This document shows, one piece after another, positions 19,383-29,463 of a stretch of DNA of 29,463 bases (position 1 is the stretch's first letter; every line of letters starts with the position of its first letter). Made by a program: the position numbers and the translations under genes. The notes below the pieces were generated by a model. It saw nothing but the letters and a program-made list of their open reading frames with translations. It was not told the origin of the DNA and made no database searches. The stretch is from a virus: positions 1 to 29,463 of IMG/VR virus record IMGVR_UViG_3300020420_001367; one strand, given 5' to 3'.

Positions 19383-20077
19383 TTCCAGTTGTCTACGACC
19401 CATTGGTCTGCACAATTAAAAGGTTTGGGTTCTCCATGGAACACAGCCACTTTATTCTCTTGTTGTATAGTTGCAGGTGTTCTAAAAAACTTTCTGCCAT
19501 CTTTTGTTAATAATTTTGTGTCTTTCAATCCTATCATTTCCCATTTGTAACTTCGGATCCAATCATCAGGCCAATGATTTATATCATTCTTTGCTCTTTT
19601 TGTTATCCAATCCTGATCACCATGGTTCTGTTGCATGATGCCGGATGGGTTCTGTTGGAACTCATTCCAAAGATAATCTAGTTTTCCTGGATTCCATCTC
19701 ATGACACTTGAATTAGATAGACTCCATTTAGGAACTCTGCATCTGTTAAAGTCTCTTATGATCATAAACTTGTCAGGGTCATAGGTGAACAGTCTATCTA
19801 TGTTATTAAACACTACAACATCTAGATCAAAAAACAAAACATTGCCTTTCAAAGGAAATTCCGGTGAAAACATCCATAGTTTGCTCCACCATGTTTTTAT
19901 AATAGGATTGTCTGGGAGATCTATGACGTTGATATGTGAGTCCAATTGATTTGTATCTTCAGTGATACAATGAAATTCATAAGGAACGGTCGTGTTCCTC
20001 TTTATCATTTGGTAAAGTACATTTGCATATTTAGAAATATACTTGTTTCCCCATTTAACGCATACTACGTGATTCAT
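19379..20077 (-). CDS. GT-A fold glycosyltransferase
   Basis: A 232-aa nucleotide-sugar transferase-like protein. The N-terminus (VVCVKWGNKYISKYANVLY) and the donor/metal site GNVLFFDLDVVVFNNIDRLF (DxD within FDLD) are typical of GT8-like enzymes. The rest is Trp-rich (KTWWSKLWMFSP, HGDQDWITKRAKND, AVFHGEPKPF), and the HGDQD / HGEPKP segments match the acceptor and second metal regions of such proteins. The substrate is unknown. It overlaps the 387-aa gene by 23 nt and the next gene by ATGA, so it belongs to the early sugar-related run together with the two GNGES proteins. Confidence 0.85.
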   Translation of the reverse strand: MNHVVCVKWGNKYISKYANVLYQMIKRNTTVPYEFHCITEDTNQLDSHINVIDLPDNPIIKTWWSKLWMFSPEFPLKGNVLFFDLDVVVFNNIDRLFTYDPDKFMIIRDFNRCRVPKWSLSNSSVMRWNPGKLDYLWNEFQQNPSGIMQQNHGDQDWITKRAKNDINHWPDDWIRSYKWEMIGLKDTKLLTKDGRKFFRTPATIQQENKVAVFHGEPKPFNCADQWVVDNWK

Positions 20078-21218
20078 AACCTTCTCTTAAATTTTTTATT
20101 TGTATATTCTTCCAATCTTCACTATCAAGAGTGTAAGGATATTCATTTTCATAACTTCTTGAACCTATGATATGAATACTCTTTATATTTAAATTATTTT
20201 TCATTTCATCATAAACTTGTAAAAATGGTTTATTTTGAAAACCTAACTTCATATCCACCTGTCCGATCTTAATATATCCTAAAGATAGTTTAGGATCTTC
20301 CCAATCGTAATTATTACTTTTAAGCCATGTTCTGAATCCTTCCATTTCCTTTTTTTTGAAAGGATGAGAATCTTCTGTGATAGTATCTCCCCATTCAATG
20401 TCGAATTCACCCGAGTAATATTTTTGATGATTGATTTCACTACACATAGTATCTGTCATTTTTGGTGCATGTTCGTCTCTATATACTTCCATCAAAGTTT
20501 TTCCTACTTGTGACCAATGCAGGTATACTCCTCCAAGTTCTCTGTTGTATCTATTTTGCTTAAAAAGTGCATAATCTTCTTCGTGCAAGTCGTATCTAGG
20601 TGCATTTAAAAAAGTGGTTATTTGAGATGGCCTCATCCATTCCGGTTCGATTATACTTTTACGATGACTTAATACCCAACTTTCGATCTCATGACATATG
20701 TTATTCAATTGTCTTATTGCATATTTGGTTTCGGTGTCGGCCTGTTTATAATACTCAGAAACTTTCCATGCCGTCCCCTGCAACTCCTCAAAATATCTGT
20801 GCAATAGATTGCAAGAGTCATGTTTTAATCTCAATCCGGGTTTTAGATTTTCATTACCGTCTGGACAAAGACCGGTTGGCAACCTACTAGAGTATTGAAA
20901 GTCATCTGATACAAAAGGATGTATCTTTTCATATGATGGATTGAATTGGAAATTATTAATTTGCTCTATACTATTATTCAATTCATCGACTAAAAATTTT
21001 AGATCCCTATTTGAATCTGCCCATCCTAAAAAACAAAAATTTTTTTCTAAAACTCTTTGTTTAGTTAGATTATCTTGAAGGGCCTTAAGGAAACGTTTCC
21101 CCAAAGGTGTATTGTATAGATGTATTCTTACTTGCTTGTTATTGTATTGGACAACAATGTTTTCGAATAGTGTATTATGTTCTTCTGTAGATGGCACTGT
21201 TTGCTCCGTGTTCGGCAC
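20055..21218 (-). CDS. Large unknown protein of the early cluster
   Basis: A 387-aa soluble protein that I cannot place in a family. It is rich in aromatic and acidic residues. Features include LYNTPLGKRFLKALQDN near the N-terminus, LPTGLCPDGNENLKPGLRLK, a central HHxx-poor helical region, a pattern GGVYLHWSQVGKTLMEVYRD near residue 240, EFDIEWGD at about 285, and a C-terminal LSLGYIKIGQVDMKLGF. The 43-nt overlap with the QueD-like gene is longer than usual, but no other ATG near the N-terminus offers a better start. It is probably expressed early with its neighbours. Confidence 0.68.
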   Translation of the reverse strand: MPNTEQTVPSTEEHNTLFENIVVQYNNKQVRIHLYNTPLGKRFLKALQDNLTKQRVLEKNFCFLGWADSNRDLKFLVDELNNSIEQINNFQFNPSYEKIHPFVSDDFQYSSRLPTGLCPDGNENLKPGLRLKHDSCNLLHRYFEELQGTAWKVSEYYKQADTETKYAIRQLNNICHEIESWVLSHRKSIIEPEWMRPSQITTFLNAPRYDLHEEDYALFKQNRYNRELGGVYLHWSQVGKTLMEVYRDEHAPKMTDTMCSEINHQKYYSGEFDIEWGDTITEDSHPFKKKEMEGFRTWLKSNNYDWEDPKLSLGYIKIGQVDMKLGFQNKPFLQVYDEMKNNLNIKSIHIIGSRSYENEYPYTLDSEDWKNIQIKNLREGYESRSMR

Positions 21219-21627
21219 ATTCTACTTCCACAACATAGCATCTGTTGTCAGTTTTTTCTCTTATCAATTTGTCTGCAAAATTAAAGGCGTGTTCGGCAAA
21301 CTTCTCTGCACCTACTCCGTCAAACATTCTTATTTCCGCTAAATCAAGACTTTCCAAATGCTTGAATGTTTCCAAGAATGGATCCGCCTTGTCAAGTGCA
21401 AGTTTGTGGTCAAACATATCTTCCAACCATGCTTTCAACGGCTTCAATCCTCCAAAGTCTACTGCCCAATTTTTGTTATCTAGTTCGTCACAACCAAATG
21501 TAAATTTAAATTGTAAACTATAACCATGCAATAAATGGCAGTGTGAATGATCTGCGTTTGGTTGTCTGAACACACAGGCTAATCCAATATTATGCCCATA
21601 TGTTTTAGTAGATAGATATTGTGCCAT
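21175..21627 (-). CDS. queD: QueD / 6-pyruvoyl-tetrahydropterin synthase-like enzyme, divergent metal site
   Basis: A 150-aa T-fold enzyme of the PTPS/QueD family, which makes 6-carboxy- or 6-pyruvoyl-tetrahydropterin from dihydroneopterin triphosphate. In the QueD role it leads to 7-deazaguanine bases (queuosine in tRNA or modified phage DNA). Visible motifs: the catalytic Cys region SHCHLLHGYS (C30), AVDFGGLK, the DHKLAL strand and EVECAEHGANSA with catalytic and substrate-binding Glu/His. Usual zinc ligands are changed: HGH reads HGY, and the first 'AAH' histidine is absent, while D26-H27-S-H29 adds other histidines. No queC, queE or folE is in the window. Confidence 0.85.
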   Translation of the reverse strand: MAQYLSTKTYGHNIGLACVFRQPNADHSHCHLLHGYSLQFKFTFGCDELDNKNWAVDFGGLKPLKAWLEDMFDHKLALDKADPFLETFKHLESLDLAEIRMFDGVGAEKFAEHAFNFADKLIREKTDNRCYVVEVECAEHGANSAIYRRT

Positions 21628-21884
21628 TAGTGTAACCTTTTTTTAATATCATTTATGTCAAACCCAAGGTCTTCTGACTTGTTTCTGATTGCATCTGTAA
21701 CATCGTTAGGTATGTCCAATTCACCATCTATGATGCTCTTTAAAAAATGTATGAACACTGTGAATTCAGGACGTTGAGTAACAGTTTCCGGATCTATGTT
21801 GTATTTCTCCATTTGATTTAACATTGCCTCGGTGACGTCGATCAAGGCTTTGATACTCGTACTGTGTTTTTCAAAATGTGCCAT
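21627..21884 (-). CDS. Small helical protein, unknown function
   Basis: An 85-aa acidic, mostly helical protein (SIKALIDVTEAMLNQMEKYN, FTVFIHFLKSIIDGELDIPN, DAIRNKSEDLGFDINDIKKR). No Cys pairs, membrane segment or known motif. It starts where the Sm-like gene stops and is followed at once by the QueD-like gene, so it is translated from the same mRNA that starts at the sigma70 promoter near 22200. It may be a partner of one of these two proteins, but nothing in the sequence proves it. Confidence 0.65.
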   Translation of the reverse strand: MAHFEKHSTSIKALIDVTEAMLNQMEKYNIDPETVTQRPEFTVFIHFLKSIIDGELDIPNDVTDAIRNKSEDLGFDINDIKKRLH

Positions 21885-22189
21885 TATGTTATTATTTTAG
21901 GTTTGTCAGGCGTTTTAATTGTAGAAAATACTCTTTTGTACTCTTCTTTTATTTTATCATTAATAAATGCAATGGATGTTATTTTATCTTTTGCTATATT
22001 GAAGGGTTTGTCCTGTTGTGCGGTTGAGAAAAATGTACCAAATGCCAATCCTTGTGGACCTTGCATTAGTACAAGTGCTTTCTCAATACTGATGTACGAG
22101 TCTGCTCCGCTTTTATAAAGTGCAATTACTTCTTCTCCCGAAGCAAGTTTTAAGGTTATATGATCTCCATCATTTATATTTTCAAACAT
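21884..22189 (-). CDS. Sm/Hfq-like small barrel protein (tentative)
   Basis: A 101-aa protein. The pattern DGDHITLKLASGEEVIALYK, then SGADSYISIEKALVLMQG and KDKITSIAFINDKI has the strand order of an Sm fold: bent strands 1-3 with a G-E-V turn, then a second motif ending in a hydrophobic strand. A long loop (GPQGLAFGTFFSTAQQDKPF) replaces the usual short Sm turn. If correct it would form a ring and bind A/U-rich RNA, affecting phage or host mRNA. This is inferred from pattern only. It has its own sigma70 promoter with a -10 box 6 nt from the ATG, so it is probably among the first proteins made. Confidence 0.6.
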   Translation of the reverse strand: MFENINDGDHITLKLASGEEVIALYKSGADSYISIEKALVLMQGPQGLAFGTFFSTAQQDKPFNIAKDKITSIAFINDKIKEEYKRVFSTIKTPDKPKIIT

Positions 22190-22195
22190 ATTACT

Positions 22196-22224
22196 AGTAT
22201 AAAATTTTATTTAGATTTTGTCAA
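22196..22224 (-). promoter_or_regulatory. Sigma70-type promoter for the Sm-like/QueD-like run
   Basis: On the minus strand, TTGACA (22224-22219), a 17-nt spacer and TATACT (22201-22196) match consensus at 6/6 and 5/6 with ideal spacing. The -10 ends 6 nt before the ATG at 22189, the same geometry as the promoters near 7360 and 26410. It lies over the 3' end of the 212-aa gene. Confidence 0.72.
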
Positions 22225-22845
22225 CTGCTTATTGATAAATCTTGCCATGCCTTCATAGGTCTCCTGGAAAACGTTTGCATGGGCCTTCCATTCTTTGGGC
22301 ATTTCCCACCTGTCATGGTTTACCACAATCCAACGGACATCTGGGTCTGACAATCCCATCAATTTATGAAACTGGTATATCCAGTAACTAGGATCCACAG
22401 GACGTTTTATATATGTGTAACCTTCTGTATTTTTGTACATATTGTTGACGGTGGTTTTATCTATACCATATAGGTCAAATCCGAGCAAAAATATTGCTTT
22501 TGGTTTGAAAGATAACGCAAGATTACCTGCATGTGGACCTGTACCCCAGTGGAATGGATCGTCTTTTCTTTCCTCACCTGAGTATGGCAAGTCAGGAATT
22601 TTTTTGACATTGGGCCACATGGCAAATAGAGGTGCCCATTTGTCTCTAGTGAAAATTGTGGTATGTTTGCTGACTGTATTCACAGCCTCTTGACACATGT
22701 GGCGGTCTACACAAACCAGGTATTCGGTAACATAATCTCTGAACACTGCGTTACAGCCAATTACCGTAGAAAACTGTTTCAGTGGAGAAATGTCAAATCC
22801 TCTCCTGCTCTCACCGTTGCCAATAATCGAAACATACTTGGTCAT
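22207..22845 (-). CDS. GT42/DUF115-like protein with GNGESR motif (second copy)
   Basis: A 212-aa paralog of the protein at 17939-18721. SIIGNGESRRGFDISPLKQF and TVIGCNAVFRDYVTEYLV match its paralog closely. The later segment HAGNLALSFKPKAIFLLGFD occupies the place of the GT42 'SGVYMC...IYLSGIDFY' region. It is shorter, lacking part of the middle and the C-terminal basic region. Likely role: a nucleotide-sugar (CMP-sugar-like) transferase or a related pterin-pyrophosphokinase fold; the sequence alone does not decide. It starts 4 nt after a 26-codon micro-ORF that is coupled to the radical SAM gene, so all three may be translated from one message. Confidence 0.7.
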   Translation of the reverse strand: MTKYVSIIGNGESRRGFDISPLKQFSTVIGCNAVFRDYVTEYLVCVDRHMCQEAVNTVSKHTTIFTRDKWAPLFAMWPNVKKIPDLPYSGEERKDDPFHWGTGPHAGNLALSFKPKAIFLLGFDLYGIDKTTVNNMYKNTEGYTYIKRPVDPSYWIYQFHKLMGLSDPDVRWIVVNHDRWEMPKEWKAHANVFQETYEGMARFINKQLTKSK

Positions 22846-22849
22846 AATA

Positions 22850-22930
22850 CTATTTAAACACCCCTTTAAACCGTTTTAGAGCGACGTACAGCACTGGTAA
22901 AATGCTTTTGCTTGTCTTTATACTCTGCAT
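22850..22930 (-). CDS. 26-aa micro-ORF coupled to the radical SAM/SPASM gene
   Basis: The ATG at 22930 uses the last base of the radical SAM stop codon (TAATG). The frame runs 26 codons to a TAG, 4 nt before the next ATG, and so fills the gap between two genes exactly. The peptide starts MQSIKTSKSILPVLYVALKR and ends in a Lys/Phe-rich tail: a short, basic, amphipathic sequence with no Cys. Its size and position recall peptide substrates of SPASM enzymes, but no precursor family is recognised. It may equally be a linker with no product. Confidence 0.4.
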   Translation of the reverse strand: MQSIKTSKSILPVLYVALKRFKGVFK

Positions 22931-23928
22931 TAAATTACCATTAAATTTGAGGCTTTTTCTTGCCGCTGTGTCATTTTATTTTGCATATCTTTTGTCCATT
23001 GTCCTTTGAATTTACCTCGGGAACAGGTGTTGCAGATTAAATTTTGTTTTTCATCCGAGTATTTTTTATCAAAAATTATACTATGTTCTTTTTGTAAATT
23101 TTTCCAAGCCTCTTCAATTCCTATTTCAAAAACATTACCGTAATTGGTTTTACCATCAGCGTCATCACAGCAAAGTACAGTTTGCCCGTCAACAAGGATT
23201 TCCATTTGTCTTAAAATTCTTCCACCTCCCATTGCACAACCTTGCATATAAGAATTTTTATCTATGGTTACATCATAAGGTTTTGTCCAATCACCATCTC
23301 CGTCTCCGATCCTATTTTCCATCCAGTTGCTTTTGCCTTTTACTTTACCTAAAATCACAGATTGATATTCGCTCATCAACGATGGAGGAGGTGATTTGGA
23401 TTGTACTTTATGTTTTATTCCCACTCTTAATCTTTTTGACAAGGAAGGATAATTTTCTTTAACAAATTTTAAACTTTGTAAGGTTTTATTTTTTTTTATC
23501 TTCATGAAGTCCCATAGTTCTTCTTCTGTATGCCCAATCACGCTCATGTGTATGGTGCCTAAAAGATGTTCGTATTTTGTTAATATATCACATTGTTTTT
23601 TTGTAAAAGAAACGCCATTTGTAGTAATACCAATTTTGATTTTGTGTTCATCACACAAACTCATGATATATTCTAAATCAGGTTGCACTAAAGGATCGCT
23701 GTACCGCCATGGTGAAACGCCACATGCGTAGTCTTTTACTTTGTATTTCTTTATTAGGCTTCCATAATCATTCAGCAGTTGTCCAAGTTGATCCTTGGTC
23801 ATACGTTTGCCATGATATGATTTGTCCTCGCTGAGGGTGGTGTATGGACAGCAATAGCATTTTGCATTACATAGATTTATTGGCTCAAATGCTATGTACA
23901 TCGGAAGTGGCAAAGGTCTATACGTCAT
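22930..23928 (-). CDS. Radical SAM enzyme with C-terminal SPASM-type domain
   Basis: A 332-aa enzyme. The N-terminal radical SAM signature is NLCNAKCYCCPYTT (CxxxCxxC, binding the SAM-cleaving [4Fe-4S] cluster). It is followed by GVSPWRYSDPLVQPD (in place of the usual GGEPLL) and an IGITTNGV strand. The C-terminal third holds further cysteines in SPASM order: GCAMGGGR, VLCCDDADGKTNYGNV, then ICNTCSRGKFKG, which would hold one or two auxiliary clusters. Such enzymes modify peptides, proteins or sugars by radical chemistry. It is not QueE by architecture. Its stop is coupled to a 26-codon micro-ORF. The phage IscA-like carrier could supply clusters. Confidence 0.9.
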   Translation of the reverse strand: MTYRPLPLPMYIAFEPINLCNAKCYCCPYTTLSEDKSYHGKRMTKDQLGQLLNDYGSLIKKYKVKDYACGVSPWRYSDPLVQPDLEYIMSLCDEHKIKIGITTNGVSFTKKQCDILTKYEHLLGTIHMSVIGHTEEELWDFMKIKKNKTLQSLKFVKENYPSLSKRLRVGIKHKVQSKSPPPSLMSEYQSVILGKVKGKSNWMENRIGDGDGDWTKPYDVTIDKNSYMQGCAMGGGRILRQMEILVDGQTVLCCDDADGKTNYGNVFEIGIEEAWKNLQKEHSIIFDKKYSDEKQNLICNTCSRGKFKGQWTKDMQNKMTQRQEKASNLMVI

Positions 23929-23942
23929 TGTATAGTATTTAA

Positions 23943-24197
23943 TTAAAGATTTTTTTCGTAATCCGTCAACCAGGCCTTAATTTGTATGCCATCTAACGGC
24001 TCTGGTGTTAACCATTCTTGAACACCATGTGTTGATTGCCATTTGCCGGAAGGCAATTGATGAGATTTTTTTGGCTCTTCTATATTTCTACCAACCATGT
24101 AACGTCTAGTGCCAGGCCCGTATGGTTTGATTTCTGTATGCACCACTATAAGTCCTAACCTATCAATCCATGCCAACATTTTATCTTTGCTATTCAT
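23943..24197 (-). CDS. Small protein, unknown function
   Basis: An 84-aa protein with a hydrophobic strand (RLGLIVVHTEIKPYGPGTRR), a basic middle (GRNIEEPKKSHQLPSGKWQS) and a Trp-containing C-terminus (IQIKAWLTDYEKN). No recognised motif. It starts 4 nt after the stop of the 93-aa gene and lies 14 nt before the radical SAM gene, so it is part of the same early message. Size and composition suggest a small alpha/beta binding protein. Confidence 0.62.
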   Translation of the reverse strand: MNSKDKMLAWIDRLGLIVVHTEIKPYGPGTRRYMVGRNIEEPKKSHQLPSGKWQSTHGVQEWLTPEPLDGIQIKAWLTDYEKNL

Positions 24198-24201
24198 ACT
24201 A

Positions 24202-24483
24202 TTAATTATCCTGATTCACTATGAGGTGCCATATGGTTTTATATTGTGTCCATGCCTTTTTCAATGCAGGGTATTTTCTTCTAAGTTCTATTGCCGCCGG
24301 GCCGATCATCTCTTCTTCTAATTGTGCCTCTTCGATATCGTTTGCCAATTGGCTTTTGCTAACTAGTCTTCCATGTGTGCCATCAGCATTTTGCTCATAC
24401 ACAGTTTCGCCACCGTCAGGAGAAACAAATATAGGACCAACACGTGTCTTCTTTTTTCTTTTTGTTTTATTTTTTGTAGCCAT
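24202..24483 (-). CDS. Small basic phage protein, unknown function
   Basis: A 93-aa protein with a very basic N-terminal tail (MATKNKTKRKKKTRVGPIFV), a short strand/turn (SPDGGETVYEQNADGTHGR) and a helical acidic segment (QLANDIEEAQLEEEMIG) before a Trp-containing end. The charge split suggests nucleic-acid contact by the N-terminus and protein contact by the helix. It overlaps the upstream 64-aa gene by 17 nt. No family named. Confidence 0.65.
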   Translation of the reverse strand: MATKNKTKRKKKTRVGPIFVSPDGGETVYEQNADGTHGRLVSKSQLANDIEEAQLEEEMIGPAAIELRRKYPALKKAWTQYKTIWHLIVNQDN

Positions 24484-24661
24484 TTGCTATTGCGTCATCA
24501 TATCTTTCATCTGCATCCGGAAGTCCGCAACTAATTGTTTCATCGGAGTTTCCATATTGATAATGATATGTGATTTCTGCCCAACGTCTCTTTCTATCAA
24601 TTTTAAATTTAATCCAATCCTTGCCATTTACTAAAGTTTTATTTTTTGCTTTCATAGACAT
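24467..24661 (-). CDS. Small basic protein, unknown function
   Basis: A 64-aa protein. The first plausible ATG is at 24661 (another at 24655); an upstream GTG at 24670 is also in frame. The sequence is basic and strand-rich (LVNGKDWIKFKIDRKRRWAE, ITYHYQYGNSDETISCGL) and ends DAIANGYKK. No motif recognised. It starts inside the 3' end of the HIT gene and overlaps the next gene, so translation is coupled on both sides. Confidence 0.55.
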   Translation of the reverse strand: MSMKAKNKTLVNGKDWIKFKIDRKRRWAEITYHYQYGNSDETISCGLPDADERYDDAIANGYKK

Positions 24662-25070
24662 TTGTGTCACTGTAATATTCGAAATGATCCGCGGCCGGGT
24701 GGGCGTGTCTCATACCACCTTTTTTTGGCGAATCACCATCATGTCGTGGAATAAAATGTATATGCGGCCACATAATAGTTTGTCCTGCACAGTTACCAAT
24801 ATTCATTCCAACGTTGAAGCCTTTCATCTTTCCTTCCTTTATCCATTCATTGCCACAATAGTAGGCCAACTTATATGATTCACCTATATATTCTGGATTG
24901 TCTTTTTTTGGAATAAAAAGTGTGTGACCTTTCACGCACGGGTATTTGTCTTTGAATACTCCTGTGTATTCATTTTCAAATATAGGGGTATCATTTCCAA
25001 GCCAAGTTGACTCTTCGTATCTGTCTATGTTTTCAAATGGCTTCTTGTAGGTAGGTTTTTGCGATGGCAT
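24639..25070 (-). CDS. HIT-family (histidine triad) hydrolase-like protein
   Basis: A 143-aa HIT-superfamily protein, likely a nucleotide hydrolase or transferase. The N-terminal strand VKGHTLFIPKK and the active-site block MNIGNCAGQTIMWPHIHFIP with R109 are clear. In the classical HxHxHxxPR motif the first His is replaced by Trp (W101), while the catalytic middle His (H103) and third His (H105) remain. A His-rich tail (MRHAHPAADHFEYY) follows. HIT enzymes split nucleoside phosphoramidates or dinucleotides; a phage copy could act on alarmone-like dinucleotides or AMP adducts (inference). It overlaps both neighbours. Confidence 0.85.
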   Translation of the reverse strand: MPSQKPTYKKPFENIDRYEESTWLGNDTPIFENEYTGVFKDKYPCVKGHTLFIPKKDNPEYIGESYKLAYYCGNEWIKEGKMKGFNVGMNIGNCAGQTIMWPHIHFIPRHDGDSPKKGGMRHAHPAADHFEYYSDTNVYESKK

Positions 25071-25431
25071 TTGTTTTAATTATTCCTATCCTAATATTAC
25101 TTGAATTTGGTCTATGTTGCAATCTAATTTTTTCCCAATACTTGGTTTTAGATACTGAAGTATTCTGTTGTAGAACATCCAAAAGATTTACTATGGCTTT
25201 TCTAACTTTTTCTGCACCACCATGTTTTTTACATGTGTCCGATCTACCCACGTGTACAACTTTTGAGTTTATTTTAATTTTGTACACACAAGGCAACCTG
25301 ATCCACTTGGTAACAGGATTCTTCTTATGTTTTATTTTATAATTTTTTTCGATGGTGTAAAGATCTTGTATCGGATACCACTTAATCACGGAAATCTCCG
25401 TACAATGAATATTTTGCAGTAAGTTCCTCAC
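25033..25431 (-). CDS. Unknown basic protein with a weak GIY-YIG-like pattern
   Basis: A 132-aa basic protein. The stretch LPCVYKIKINSKVVHVGRSD, followed by CKKHGGAEKVRKAIVNLL, resembles the first part of GIY-YIG nucleases (xxVYxI...xxVYVGxSxx...R). The Tyr pair is only partly kept (VYK and VHVG), and the expected catalytic Glu is not obvious. The long 50-nt overlap with the SET gene makes the first 15 residues doubtful; a shorter start could not be found because no other ATG or clear GTG/TTG lies in frame there. It may be a degenerate endonuclease or an unrelated protein. Confidence 0.5.
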   Translation of the reverse strand: MRNLLQNIHCTEISVIKWYPIQDLYTIEKNYKIKHKKNPVTKWIRLPCVYKIKINSKVVHVGRSDTCKKHGGAEKVRKAIVNLLDVLQQNTSVSKTKYWEKIRLQHRPNSSNIRIGIIKTNAIAKTYLQEAI

Positions 25432-25693
25432 CTGCTTTTATTTTCCTTGTGGTGATCAAATACTTTACAGGAAGTTGATGCCAGAAGCCTGCAACATTTC
25501 TACAATTAGGATCCTCGGAGTGATTATAAAATGCTCCTAAGGCAGTTCTAATAGAGCCATGTGGAAAGTTTTTATTCAAAATATGCACGATACCAAGCAC
25601 AACATCTTGGTCAAAGTCTTTAGTGGCAAAAAGTCCTAGTCCTTGGACGTTGGATTCTTTAATTGTCAGTCCGTCTGGTAAAGGTTTATACAT
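25382..25693 (-). CDS. SET-domain protein (putative protein lysine methyltransferase)
   Basis: A 103-aa minimal SET domain. SNVQGLGLFATKDF (SAM-binding GxG region, residues 14-27), LGAFYNHSEDPNC (the NHSxxPNC motif, 52-64) and KAGEELTAKYSLYG (ExxxxY, catalytic Tyr95) appear in the right order. The family methylates lysines in proteins (histones or ribosomal proteins in eukaryotes, a few bacterial effectors). Here the pre- and post-SET parts are absent, so it is near the smallest functional size. The target could be a host DNA-binding or ribosomal protein (inference). It starts 7 nt inside the exonuclease gene's 3' end and lies in the early cluster. Confidence 0.87.
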   Translation of the reverse strand: MYKPLPDGLTIKESNVQGLGLFATKDFDQDVVLGIVHILNKNFPHGSIRTALGAFYNHSEDPNCRNVAGFWHQLPVKYLITTRKIKAGEELTAKYSLYGDFRD

Positions 25694-26219
25694 TTTTTAT
25701 ATTTAAAACCTTGTATACTTTTTGTACTTTCTTCGCTTGGAAATAACAGTCTTCCAATGCGTTGTGCAAACCAGTCCTTTTTTCATTACGATCCCTTGGC
25801 ACAAGATTGAATAAAGTTCTGGAGTCACGTATCTGCCAATATTGCCATGGAACTGGATGTCCTAATTGATTATAAATGTTTTGTAATATGGCATAGTCAA
25901 ATAATGGACCTTGGCACCAAAACACATCCACGCCAACGGACCATTTATTAATTTTTTTTATCATTTCATCAAGTGAAATTCTATCTTGGTCACCTAATGC
26001 TTCTTCCATAATTTCTTTTGGTTGCGTGTTCCACCAGTCTAATGTATCCTGCATAACATCTCTGCCTTTTGAAGTTTGCGAATCTACATCAACTCTAAAA
26101 TACATGCCTTGAGATGGTTCGGCAGTTGTATATGGATCAAACTTTACTCCTCCCACTGTCAGTATCACGGCGTCAGGATTTGTGCTGAGTGTTTCAAGAT
26201 CTATCATTCCATGTATCAT
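25686..26219 (-). CDS. DEDD-type 3'-5' exonuclease (DnaQ/ExoVIII-like fold)
   Basis: A 177-aa RNase H-fold exonuclease. The metal-binding acidic residues appear in the usual blocks: MIDLETLS (D7, E9), CQGPLFDYAIL (Asp of ExoII) and LHNALEDCYFQA (ExoIII, His plus Asp, DEDDh type). VFWCQGPLFDY is typical of the phage/plasmid Rv2179c-like branch. It probably degrades single-stranded DNA or RNA 3' ends, in host RNA turnover or DNA processing. The ATG at 26219 overlaps the 61-aa gene's TGA. It is among the first genes behind the sigma70 promoter at 26408-26435. Confidence 0.88.
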   Translation of the reverse strand: MIHGMIDLETLSTNPDAVILTVGGVKFDPYTTAEPSQGMYFRVDVDSQTSKGRDVMQDTLDWWNTQPKEIMEEALGDQDRISLDEMIKKINKWSVGVDVFWCQGPLFDYAILQNIYNQLGHPVPWQYWQIRDSRTLFNLVPRDRNEKRTGLHNALEDCYFQAKKVQKVYKVLNIKNV

Positions 26220-26401
26220 ACATACTCTTCTTTTGATCGCGTGTTTGCCTTTGTGCCCGATAATGGATCATCTGTTTCTTTTATATTTGATACCTTAAAG
26301 TTTGGAAAACGTTTTTCTATATCTTTTCCGGTATCACTGTACACAAAAGTCGAGATTGTTTTATCAGACATTTGTAAATCAAACTTCCAACATTTAGTCA
26401 T
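26216..26401 (-). CDS. First gene of the early cluster, 61-aa protein of unknown function
   Basis: A 61-aa polar protein (begins MTKCWKFDLQMSDKTISTF; ends TRSKEEYV) with strand-like N-terminus and a charged disordered-looking C-terminus. No motif recognised. The ATG lies 6 nt after the -10 box of a consensus promoter, so the mRNA probably starts at or next to the start codon. A second in-frame ATG at 26371 would leave a 30-nt leader but has no ribosome site. Being first from a strong promoter, it may act on the host at once after DNA entry (inference). Confidence 0.62.
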   Translation of the reverse strand: MTKCWKFDLQMSDKTISTFVYSDTGKDIEKRFPNFKVSNIKETDDPLSGTKANTRSKEEYV

Positions 26402-26407
26402 AAGTGT

Positions 26408-26435
26408 ATTATACTAGAAAAATGGTATTTGTCAA
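26408..26435 (-). promoter_or_regulatory. Consensus sigma70 promoter of the early cluster
   Basis: On the minus strand, TTGACA (26435-26430), a 16-nt spacer and TATAAT (26413-26408) match consensus at 12 of 12 positions. The -10 ends 6 nt before the ATG at 26401. It is the only space between the secreted-protein gene and the 61-aa gene. The host RNA polymerase should read this without phage factors. Confidence 0.85.
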
Positions 26436-26693
26436 CTATGCGGAAATACTATCGCTTGGTAAATCGCTAGGGGCAGGAGTGCCGTTATTTTTTAAATCTT
26501 CTTTGAACAATTCAAATTGATCTTCATCCCAACAATACACCTTACCACTTGATGTTGGAAATGTTTGTTGCATATAATTACTCACGCCATGTGCTTCACT
26601 TATACATGCATCATAGGACTCGTAGTTAAACTCCTCATAAATTGCACGGCAATCTGCTCCAAAACATATAATTATAACCATGATAAATTTCAT
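26436..26693 (-). CDS. Small secreted cysteine-containing protein
   Basis: An 85-aa protein with a short export-type N-terminus (MKFIMVIIICFGADCRA), a likely signal peptide cleaved near residue 13-17 or a membrane anchor. Four Cys (C10, C15, C30, C54) lie in a polar, acidic body (FNYESYDACISEAHG, SGKVYCWDEDQFELF); at least one disulfide in the periplasm is likely. The C-terminus is Pro/Ser-rich (GTPAPSDLPSDSIS). A strong ribosome site (AGGAGAG) precedes it. It follows the two holin-like genes and may act in the periplasm with them. No family named. Confidence 0.68.
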   Translation of the reverse strand: MKFIMVIIICFGADCRAIYEEFNYESYDACISEAHGVSNYMQQTFPTSSGKVYCWDEDQFELFKEDLKNNGTPAPSDLPSDSISA

Positions 26694-26715: not shown

Positions 26716-26967
26716 TTACTTTTTCTTCTTGTGTTGCAAAGTACGTACTTTTGTCTGCAACCTAATCAAGTCGTTATCTAGCATACGTACTCGGTCGATG
26801 AGAGCAATGAGTGTGGTTGATGTTGATCCTAATTTGGGTTTGATTTGTTTCACAATATAATTGTATAGGTAAAAGATAAAATAAGCAAGGAAAAAAACTG
26901 CTACAATAGGAAATCCGTATTCTTGTATTACAGAGATAATAGTGTTTGTTGCGTTTACTGTTTGCAT
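26716..26967 (-). CDS. Small holin-like membrane protein (paralog B)
   Basis: An 83-aa protein. A short periplasm-type head (MQTVNATNTIISVIQEYGFP) leads into one membrane helix (IVAVFFLAYFIFYLYNYI), then a charged coiled-coil-like tail (IDRVRMLDNDLIRLQTKVR) ending in KKKK. It has the size and layout of BhlA/UviB-type holin-like proteins. It aligns with the preceding 93-aa gene through 'xGxPIVAxxxxxxFxxxxxxYI' followed by a D-rich helix, so the two are paralogs. The start overlaps the upstream stop (TAATG; GGAAAG site). A holin/antiholin pair is one reading; a membrane complex with the cyclase next door is another. Confidence 0.65.
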   Translation of the reverse strand: MQTVNATNTIISVIQEYGFPIVAVFFLAYFIFYLYNYIVKQIKPKLGSTSTTLIALIDRVRMLDNDLIRLQTKVRTLQHKKKK

Positions 26968-27248
26968 TAATCTTTCCTAGCATCTTTCTTGCCATCTGCT
27001 CTGGCTATTCTGTCAGTGTCTACGTTTAACCCTAACTGCTGTGACACTTCCTGATCTATTTTTAGTATATCGTTGTTCATTGTTTTAACTCTGTTGTCTA
27101 ATTGTGTGATTACATTTTGTATGAAAGTAATTGAACTTACAACAGAAGATAGTATATATTTTATGATAATCATTATAAAAAAACCCATTCCTATGGTAGC
27201 CACTATAGGTAGTCCTAATTCTGCAACTAATTTCCAAAATGTATTCAT
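26967..27248 (-). CDS. Small holin-like membrane protein (paralog A)
   Basis: A 93-aa protein with head MNTFWKLVAELGLP, one membrane segment (IVATIGMGFFIMIIIKYIL), then a heptad-like region (ITFIQNVITQLDNRVKTMNN, DILKIDQEVSQQL) and a basic tail (DGKKDARKD). It resembles its neighbour in order and in the GLPIVA core, so tandem duplication is likely. It starts 11 nt after the adenylyl cyclase stop; TTAAATA overlaps that stop 8 nt before the ATG. Function is inferred only from layout (BhlA/UviB-like holin). Confidence 0.65.
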   Translation of the reverse strand: MNTFWKLVAELGLPIVATIGMGFFIMIIIKYILSSVVSSITFIQNVITQLDNRVKTMNNDILKIDQEVSQQLGLNVDTDRIARADGKKDARKD

Positions 27249-27259
27249 TATATGTGTAT

Positions 27260-29185
27260 TTAATCTTTGATAGTGTAGACTTTAATTTCTTCTGTCTTGC
27301 CCTTAACCGTTATACTGTCTATGTATTCAAACGGATAAATTGTTTCGATAGTTTGCCTAGTGTCTTCACCTATTACTATTGTTTTTCCTAAAGTTTTACT
27401 TGAACTTTCTAATCGTGAAGCCAAATTGACTGCGTCACCAATCACTGAATAATCAAATCTCTGATCAGATCCCATATTGCCCACCAGTGCGTCGCCTGTG
27501 TTGATTCCTATACCTATGTTGATCTTTGGTAGTCCTTCTGCTTGTAGGTGCATATTTAATTCCGCCAGCGCCACTGTCATCTCGAGAGAACTTTTAACAG
27601 CCATTTCTCTGTGTTTTTTGTTTTCCAGAGGTGCATTCCAGAAAGCCATTATACAGTCACCCATGAACTTGTCTATTGTTCCACCATTTGCAATTATAAC
27701 ATCGGTCATGCGTGTTAAGAATCTATTGATCAATTTTGTAAGTCCTGCAGGGTTACCTTTGTATTTCTCGCTGATAGGAGTAAAGCCTCTGATGTCACAG
27801 AACAAGAAAGTCATGTTCCTTGTTTCACCCCCAAGTTTTAAAAGTGAGGGATCTTTCTGTAATTTTTTAACCATACCAGGATCTAGATAGTGTTCGAACT
27901 GTTTCTTGATCTGTTTACGTAATCTGCTTTGTGTAGCAAAATTATTGTATGTGCTGTGAGACCAGATTACGAATAAAAATAAAACTGCAAATGATGGATC
28001 AACTAAGAATCCTTTGTTGGCATAGGCCATGAATGACGCATAACTGATTCCACCAGTAACAAATAATAATAAAGGCACCGAAAATAAAACTGATACTCTA
28101 GGGATCAACATTATCATTAATAAACCAAGCAATCCTATGAAAATTACCTCATATGTATCTGCTTGTGGTATCCTTAATAAATGTTTATTTGTTAAGAGTG
28201 TATCCAATGCTTGGGCAGATATCATTTGATCAGTTGTCAGTCCATGTGGTGTGTATTTTAACACACTTAATCCAGCGGCATCTAAGCCTACTACAACTAT
28301 TCTTCCTTTGATTTTATTTTCATTAAAGTTGTTAGAAAAAATTTCTTTTGCAGACATCTGAATGTATTTTGTTGGATCGGCATAATTGATATACATTTCG
28401 GCATTATGATTAACTGGTATGCCCGCCTTCTTACTAACAAGCACTTCGTCGATCCCGTGTTCTTTCGCAATAACTTTTATTCTTTTAGAACCATTAAGTA
28501 ATCTAACATTTTCCAAAAGCATACTTGGATATATTTTGTTGCCTATTCTTATAAGCACAGGCATTTTCCTTACAACTGCGTCAGGCTCAGGTGAAGTTAC
28601 GTTCACACCCATACCCGATACTCCAGCACTTATTTTTTGTGTAGGCGATACTATGCCGGCATACTCATACAACCAAGGTTTTGCATCACCTTTCTCAATA
28701 ATTTGTGTGGTGCTTGGTAGTTCTATGCCTTTTTTATTTTTGACACTCATCAAAATTACTGCTCTTCCAGATTCTTTTAGAACTGTAGAAAATACTGCAT
28801 CTGTATCTAACAGAACTGTCCCTAATTGTTCACGCAGGTCATTTGACATAGGCATTGATTTTAAATATTCTACACCACTCATTCGATCAGCCTCTGCAAA
28901 TAAAATATTGTAGTTTATTAGAATAGCACCCGCGTCACCTATCTTGGCGTGAAGCATTGCCATTATGTGCCTTGGCCATGGCCATTGTCCGTATGTCTTA
29001 AGATCTTCTTCTGTGATGTTTACCACAGTTACAGAATCACTAATTACATCTCTTGGATGGATTTGTTGGAAGTAGTCCCAAGTTTTGTACCTTAATGTTT
29101 TGACCGCATCGTTGTTGTCTATTCTTATTCCCAACAACACAGCGGCAACAATAATTACCATCCATATGCTTGTAAATATTTTCAT
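27260..29185 (-). CDS. CHASE2-sensor class III adenylyl cyclase
   Basis: A 641-aa membrane receptor enzyme that should convert ATP to cAMP. Order of parts: TM helix (about 6-21); extracytoplasmic CHASE2 sensor (about 25-335) with its GQWPWPR signature (66-72); three TM helices (about 345-363, 365-385, 395-410); a short linker (SRLRKQIKKQFEHYLDPGMV); and a cyclase domain (about 455-635). All key catalytic residues are present: metal-binding D464 (FCDIRGFT) and D510 (FMGDCIMAFW), adenine-selecting K506 and D578 (RFDYSVIG), and transition-state N587 and R591 (DAVNLASRLE). It is complete, with no frameshift, and coupled (TAATG) to the holin candidate upstream. Such sensors are bacterial; finding one among phage genes is unusual. 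Confidence 0.93.
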   Translation of the reverse strand: MKIFTSIWMVIIVAAVLLGIRIDNNDAVKTLRYKTWDYFQQIHPRDVISDSVTVVNITEEDLKTYGQWPWPRHIMAMLHAKIGDAGAILINYNILFAEADRMSGVEYLKSMPMSNDLREQLGTVLLDTDAVFSTVLKESGRAVILMSVKNKKGIELPSTTQIIEKGDAKPWLYEYAGIVSPTQKISAGVSGMGVNVTSPEPDAVVRKMPVLIRIGNKIYPSMLLENVRLLNGSKRIKVIAKEHGIDEVLVSKKAGIPVNHNAEMYINYADPTKYIQMSAKEIFSNNFNENKIKGRIVVVGLDAAGLSVLKYTPHGLTTDQMISAQALDTLLTNKHLLRIPQADTYEVIFIGLLGLLMIMLIPRVSVLFSVPLLLFVTGGISYASFMAYANKGFLVDPSFAVLFLFVIWSHSTYNNFATQSRLRKQIKKQFEHYLDPGMVKKLQKDPSLLKLGGETRNMTFLFCDIRGFTPISEKYKGNPAGLTKLINRFLTRMTDVIIANGGTIDKFMGDCIMAFWNAPLENKKHREMAVKSSLEMTVALAELNMHLQAEGLPKINIGIGINTGDALVGNMGSDQRFDYSVIGDAVNLASRLESSSKTLGKTIVIGEDTRQTIETIYPFEYIDSITVKGKTEEIKVYTIKD

Positions 29186-29463
29186 TATTTTTTTAACCCA
29201 AATGCACTACCAGTTAGTAGGGCACCAAACGCCAAATGGAAAAGTCCACCCATCTGTAAAGTGTATGGTGAGTGGTGTGCTGTCAATTTTTTAAGCAGTT
29301 CCATTTGTACCATTGTGTCTTCGATTGCACGTACTTCATCCAAAAACATATGATAGTCAGGACGCATTATTCCAAACCATATTGGCACAATCATAAAATC
29401 AAATATACAAATTGCAAGGTAAACAATCAGTGCCGTCCATCTCCATTTCATTCCTGTTTCCAT
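29185..29463 (-). CDS. Probable phage holin (3-TM/GTA-holin-like), start at window edge
   Basis: A 92-aa protein. A first membrane helix (WTALIVYLAICIFDFMIVPI) is followed by WFGIMRPD, a soluble middle, and a second hydrophobic part (MGGLFHLAFGALLTGSAFGL). The DFMIVPIWFG... and LTAHHSPYTLQMGGLFHLAF pattern is that of phage/gene-transfer-agent holins ('DFxxxPxxxG... TLxxGGLFHxxxGAxL'). The first ATG is exactly at the edge (29463); a second is at 29451, so an earlier start outside the window cannot be excluded. It ends by TAATG into the cyclase gene. As holin it would set lysis timing and let the M15 endolysin through. Confidence 0.72.
   Translation of the reverse strand: METGMKWRWTALIVYLAICIFDFMIVPIWFGIMRPDYHMFLDEVRAIEDTMVQMELLKKLTAHHSPYTLQMGGLFHLAFGALLTGSAFGLKK

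Follow-up and report, generated by a model that had tools for sequence, protein, structure and literature searches.

Phage-encoded CHASE2 cyclases and their link to curli genes are already known. A curli-linked phage cyclase was published in 2022 within the T8SS clusters of pelagiphages (PMC9599517), and annotated homologues of the protein described here are found in Pelagibacter phage HTVC008M (adenylate/guanylyl cyclase AGE60353, 36% identity) and methylophage Melnitz EXVC044M (QZI94833, 32% identity). In HTVC008M, a marine phage, the cluster ends with a CHASE2-type cyclase, preceded by genes for a FecR-domain protein and for secretion, as in relatives of our locus. These secretion genes are of the curli type, whereas the relatives of our locus have type I secretion system (T1SS) genes, and HTVC008M belongs to a separate phage lineage, as judged by its terminase. 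The Melnitz cluster has the order csgF-csgG-curlin-FecR-curlin-AC, as in HTVC008M-type clusters, but its cyclase has S in place of N587 and D in place of S580.

Among bacteria, the CHASE2 adenylyl cyclases of Alphaproteobacteria (CyaD1 type of Sinorhizobium, PMC5498481) share the domain order, although the phage proteins form a clan of their own and the T1SS neighbours of bacterial cyclases retain an ATPase. In the BiofilmReg operon of Burkholderia, a LysM-FecR protein and a CHASE2 histidine kinase are encoded adjacently (PMC5192318), which resembles the pairing in the phage cassettes, but the output is a histidine kinase and export genes are lacking. The Lap/RTX T1SS (LapB, LapC and the TolC-like LapE, with LapA adhesins) combine TolC, HlyD and an ABC transmembrane domain (TMD) with a giant repeat protein, the N-terminal end of which might be retained. 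The phage set is comparable, but lacks a nucleotide-binding domain (NBD) and the HlyD hairpin, and has a cyclase in place of the c-di-GMP control protein.

The window analysed here is the whole 29,463-nucleotide stretch of IMG/VR record IMGVR_UViG_3300020420_001367. It encodes a complete CHASE2-class III receptor cyclase, with an N-terminal TM helix, a CHASE2 domain, three further TM helices and a Guanylate_cyc domain in a single protein (Table 1). The earlier note had claimed this domain order for an intact 641-aa protein, with exact coordinates, and Pfam, AlphaFold2 and hydropathy bear it out, both profile matches being far above cut-off. The uninterrupted frame is on the minus strand; a plus-strand reading of the same interval was rejected because it has stop codons all along. 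The PF05226 match takes in the N-terminal TM helix, and the helices after CHASE2 are at residues 342-363, 366-391 and 398-433. The AlphaFold2 alignment consisted of the window and locus proteins, with two database-record rows left out. In the resulting model, the CHASE2 domain has a pLDDT of mostly 80-93, and the catalytic domain of the full-length protein has a cyclase fold at low confidence. The cyclase domain model is nearest to CyaB (Z 22.6, VIA), which is also matched by sequence (PDB 3r5g, E 4.4e-34). The matches listed for the full model in the PDB comparison are cyclase domains, and they have no bearing on the CHASE2 fold.

Table 1. Features of the window around the receptor cyclase gene, with domains given by residue range.
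Feature	Position	Strand	Evidence or remark
CHASE2 receptor cyclase, 641 aa, intact	27260..29185	-	phrog_35576, full length, E 7.5e-147
CHASE2 periplasmic sensor domain, aa 14-355	28121..29146	-	PF05226, E 2e-38; 3.2e-41 on DNA
Three TM helices and coupling helix, aa 342-433	27887..28162	-	AlphaFold2, hydropathy
Class III nucleotidyl cyclase domain, aa 455-640	27266..27823	-	Guanylate_cyc PF00211, E 3.6e-22
92-aa membrane protein, directly upstream	29185..29463	-	Stop overlaps cyclase start (TAATG)
93-aa TM protein, immediately downstream	26967..27248	-	phrog_18771
83-aa TM protein, paralogue of the 93-aa TM protein	26716..26967	-	phrog_18771
Phage backbone genes after the cyclase	20055..26693	-	Same order in most related contigs, both cassette types
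Small SET-domain protein	25382..25693	-	PF00856, E 1.9e-11; in a subset of relatives
HIT-domain protein	24639..25070	-	
Radical SAM/SPASM protein	22930..23928	-	Few relatives have one

The active site is intact. Residues D464, K506, D510 and R591 do not vary among the 65 phage homologues aligned, and N587 is kept in all of them except Melnitz, so that the metal-binding aspartate pair (D464, D510) and the transition-state residues (N587, R591) are present. D578, which the earlier note also named as catalytic, is a nearby conserved aspartate, and alignment with CyaB (3r5g) and Cya2 places the substrate-specifying position at S580. The base-specifying pair is therefore K506 and S580, compared with K/T in CyaB. 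Class IIIb adenylyl cyclases are marked by K together with T or S, and K with D, T or S is an adenine-selecting pair. The window cyclase fits this class, and its K506/S580 pair and its close solved relative CyaB make cAMP the most likely product. In the Melnitz cyclase (L082 9917-11968), D578 is also replaced by S, and catalysis is possibly altered or lost.

The window extends only 278 bases beyond the cyclase start, and the gene for the 92-aa membrane protein is all that is in view there. In the relative L002, whose cyclase is 94% identical, the corresponding ORF (98% identical) is preceded by an HlyD gene and then by a T1SS-type TMD gene, with no CsgF or CsgG. Reading from L002, we infer that the window's own cassette, beyond the window end, would be of the T1SS type. 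About 700 bp or more can be seen upstream of the cyclase in 43 loci, and every one of them has cassette genes there; 38 of these (29 distinct lineages) are of the T1SS type and five of the curli type. A FecR gene is seen wherever the upstream stretch reaches that far. In longer relatives the full run comprises genes for a FecR/cadherin protein, TolC, the TMD, HlyD, a small membrane protein and, last, the cyclase, and in the cassette of relative L040 the gaps between genes are only -44 to +28 bases. The reverse search, starting from HlyD, found this cyclase type in 30 of 31 phage loci; the remaining locus carries a different CHASE2 protein beside a curli cassette. On one contig (L189, IMGVR_UViG_3300037674_000901), the end of a T1SS-type cassette is next to a csgF/csgG/FecR set on the opposite strand and to the gene for a second CHASE2 protein, which is divergent, so that both cassette types occur together.

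TolC, an MFP (HlyD) and a T1SS-type ABC transmembrane domain are all present in the relatives. NCBIfam matches identify TolC (TIGR01844, E 1.9e-31), HlyD (TIGR01843, E 4e-48) and an LssB/LapB-type TMD (TIGR03375, E 3e-19), and HlyB and PrtD are the top Foldseek matches of the TMD model. The FecR/cadherin protein has 1000-1700 aa and no signal peptide. Two parts are reduced: the ABC protein, at 247-251 aa, consists of the TMD only, without a Walker A motif or ATPase, and the phage HlyD is without its coiled-coil hairpin. A suitable NBD for the exporter was not found in the phage records searched. An NBD encoded elsewhere in the phage was considered and rejected, as the sole strong PF00005 match is SufC-like and has a SufE-like ORF and the gene for a TonB receptor next to it. 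Because an ABC nucleotide-binding domain is lacking, we describe the cassette as T1SS-like and not as a complete T1SS. The phage TolC proteins (L040 6432-8168 and L007 43-1887) carry a K/E-rich N-terminal extension of ~200 aa, which might substitute for the hairpin absent from HlyD. Among 50,697 phage records TolC had no match and HlyD no close one, and the open-licence literature searched held nothing relevant on phage-encoded type I secretion. Within that literature, the T1SS cassette, its reduced parts, the cassette exchange and the bacterial cNMP-HlyD parallel (both below) look new, and the loci supply candidates for a phage-encoded set of TolC-, HlyD- and HlyB-like proteins.

The five curli-type loci are L072, L075, L076, HTVC008M and Melnitz, and their set consists of CsgF, CsgG, curlin and a FecR-domain protein. 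Three of them (L072, L075 and L076) have a curli cassette yet carry window-type backbone genes downstream, mostly at 60-90% identity, and in the tree their cyclases fall with those of HTVC008M and Melnitz and apart from the T1SS-type cyclases found in the phage lineage to which they belong. We conclude that the cyclase is part of the cassette rather than of the backbone. The cyclase tree divides exactly along cassette type (SH-aLRT 99 and 100), and the cassettes exchange at one genomic slot, each bringing its own cyclase. Besides the cyclase, the shared element of the two cassettes is the FecR domain, at 36-39% identity across types. Judged by reading their N termini, the curli-type FecR proteins have a signal peptide and those of the T1SS type do not, a difference that matches the respective export routes. 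The exchange thus isolates FecR and the CHASE2 cyclase as the common factors, which makes the question of what CHASE2 senses directly testable.

Bacterial relatives of the cyclase, at best 40% identical and nearest mostly in Alphaproteobacteria, show a similar neighbourhood. A FecR gene lies within 8 kb of the cyclase in 28 of 80 bacterial loci, against an expectation of ~2% from a genome-wide count that provides a rough baseline from 20 of these genomes, and an HlyD gene in 21 of the 80. The T1SS neighbours keep their ATPase. In one clade (L111, L112, L113 and L130) a cNMP-binding domain is fused to HlyD directly before the cyclase. One operon of this clade (L113 4110-10796) encodes a TolC-like protein, a possible substrate, a C39-ABC protein, cNMP-HlyD, the CHASE2 cyclase and a small cNMP-binding-like ORF, the last assigned from sequence reading only. 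The fusion and this operon suggest that the cyclase product may act on type I secretion itself. The curli arrangement also has a bacterial counterpart, in a Caulobacteraceae MAG (L125, CANGEH010000001.1, 3992-10049) with the order csgF-csgG-curlin-curlin-FecR-CHASE2 cyclase, which is nearly that of the phages. The neighbouring genes on this contig, among them TonB-receptor and glycosyltransferase genes, are cellular. FecR and the cyclase have been stated to be absent from bacterial curli operons (PMC9599517); provided that the MAG is binned correctly, L125 is a counterexample, and a cluster of this type is a plausible donor type of the phage curli cassette.

We hypothesize that, within a phage-borne cassette for surface-protein export, the cyclase provides the signalling function, sensing export or retention of the FecR protein and reporting via cAMP, and we give this reading a probability of about 55%. 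The association, the joint exchange, the purifying selection (below) and the intact active site are seen in the data. From these we infer contact between FecR and CHASE2, cAMP as the signal, a receptor in the host and a benefit to the phage. The infected host would display a large FecR/cadherin adhesin, or curli, exported by the phage cassette. The FecR domain would be retained in the periplasm or pass through it, where CHASE2 could detect retained, completed or jammed export; FecR is the likeliest input because the two share a cassette and because the bacterial relatives have a FecR/T1SS neighbourhood. The signal would pass along the three TM helices to the dimeric cyclase, which would make a cyclic nucleotide, probably cAMP. 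A search of 14 phage records found no cyclic-nucleotide-binding protein (PF00027), so the output would depend on a host cAMP receptor, which may then adjust export or surface physiology. The purpose would probably lie in aggregation, in capturing new hosts or in keeping out other phages. Lytic phages may thus keep a bacterial receptor cyclase because, as the data suggest, it travels with FecR surface-protein export and not alone. A more tentative and rather doubtful proposal is that an ATPase-less T1SS, a giant FecR/cadherin protein and a CHASE2 cyclase reading the periplasmic state of this protein and reporting it by cAMP make up a virus-encoded export-and-feedback circuit, interchangeable with a curli cassette. 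If true, this circuit would be self-contained and would rebuild the infected cell's surface.

The export reading is weakest in that the ATPase is missing, and this keeps another explanation alive, namely that an ungated channel through the envelope, serving uptake, leakage or lysis, is built from the NBD-less TMD, the short HlyD and TolC (or CsgG), and that the cyclase times or reports its opening. This would account for an exporter without a Walker motif in phages with no matching NBD, where the one clear NBD is SufC-like, and for the small TM proteins on both sides of the cyclase. The curli sets, moreover, are without the gate CsgE, and an open pore has been proposed for them (PMC9599517). 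We nevertheless consider such a conduit unlikely, as every fully visible T1SS-type upstream region encodes a large FecR/cadherin protein without a signal peptide, which resembles a T1SS substrate.

Similarly improbable is a stand-alone auxiliary gene, in which the cyclase raises host cAMP and reprograms metabolism while the secretion genes are unrelated cargo. The intact catalytic residues are compatible with this, and the receptor would again come from the host, given the 14 phage records without PF00027. However, it leaves unexplained the co-occurrence with secretion cassettes in 43 of 43 loci, the exchange of the cyclase together with its cassette and the like neighbourhood in bacteria. The proposal in the earlier note of an isolated environmental sensor used to steer host metabolism, to signal superinfection or to time lysis is not supported in that form, since the cyclase sits in a FecR secretion cassette and its bacterial relatives have a comparable setting.

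A Pycsar-like anti-phage system, in which a cyclic pyrimidine or purine made on superinfection triggers an effector, was suggested by PADLOC PycC profiles (best E 6.5e-28). These match only the catalytic domain, and the base-specifying K/S pair is adenylyl cyclase-like. The 14 phage records searched for PF00027 also lack a cNMP-binding effector, and the TM proteins adjoining the cyclase have no match in Pfam or PADLOC. Membership in Pycsar was rejected because an adjacent cNMP-binding effector is missing and the neighbours tested have no PADLOC match, and we regard this explanation as very improbable.

Although CHASE2 cyclases are typically bacterial, contamination with host DNA or a chimeric assembly has a negligible chance of being correct, because tens of independent IMG/VR contigs share the gene order around the cyclase and the phage cyclases form one clan in the tree, apart from bacteria bar one curli-type bacterial row. 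The cyclase gene is resident in the phage. It is encoded by at least 307 relatives in IMG/VR, none of 62 extracted cyclase frames has a premature stop, and the window also carries genes for a clamp loader, an endolysin and tail-fibre-type proteins. Against the nearest relatives, dN/dS is ~0.02-0.1 in most comparisons and in all three domains, with several pairs in which dS is saturated or nearly so; for other pairs, each of the three domains has a median of 0.07-0.08. The earlier note had named a chimeric join of host and phage DNA and a decayed cyclase copy as findings that would undo its claim. The recurring gene order contradicts the first and the purifying selection the second, and together they uphold an intact phage-borne gene.

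The window phage is probably an uncultivated large relative in the T4 superfamily, not a pelagimyophage. This placement follows from two identities, the DNA polymerase of a 148-kb relative being 44-50% identical to those of the jumbo phages Phosso, 2.275.O and 121Q and the window clamp loader 50% identical to that of PA5oct, and from the HTVC008M terminase, which has no match in the window's relatives. On the last ground, kinship with T4-like pelagiphages was rejected. A Terminase_6N search gave no match, the control of a Gp23 search was itself silent, so that this search carries no weight on kinship, and DNA comparison found no close isolate. The same phage lineage carries GroEL, DnaK-like and Clp-protease-like genes (L206 6547-10195 and L202 1061-3307; G001, the 148-kb relative), with DnaK assigned by sequence reading, and a class I ribonucleotide reductase is encoded elsewhere. 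On a 138-kb phage contig (G002, IMGVR_UViG_3300007512_001547), genes for a SufE-like protein, a SufC-like protein and a TonB-dependent receptor (BtuB-like) are consecutive (L085 1056-3460), as assigned by sequence reading together with the PF00005 match.
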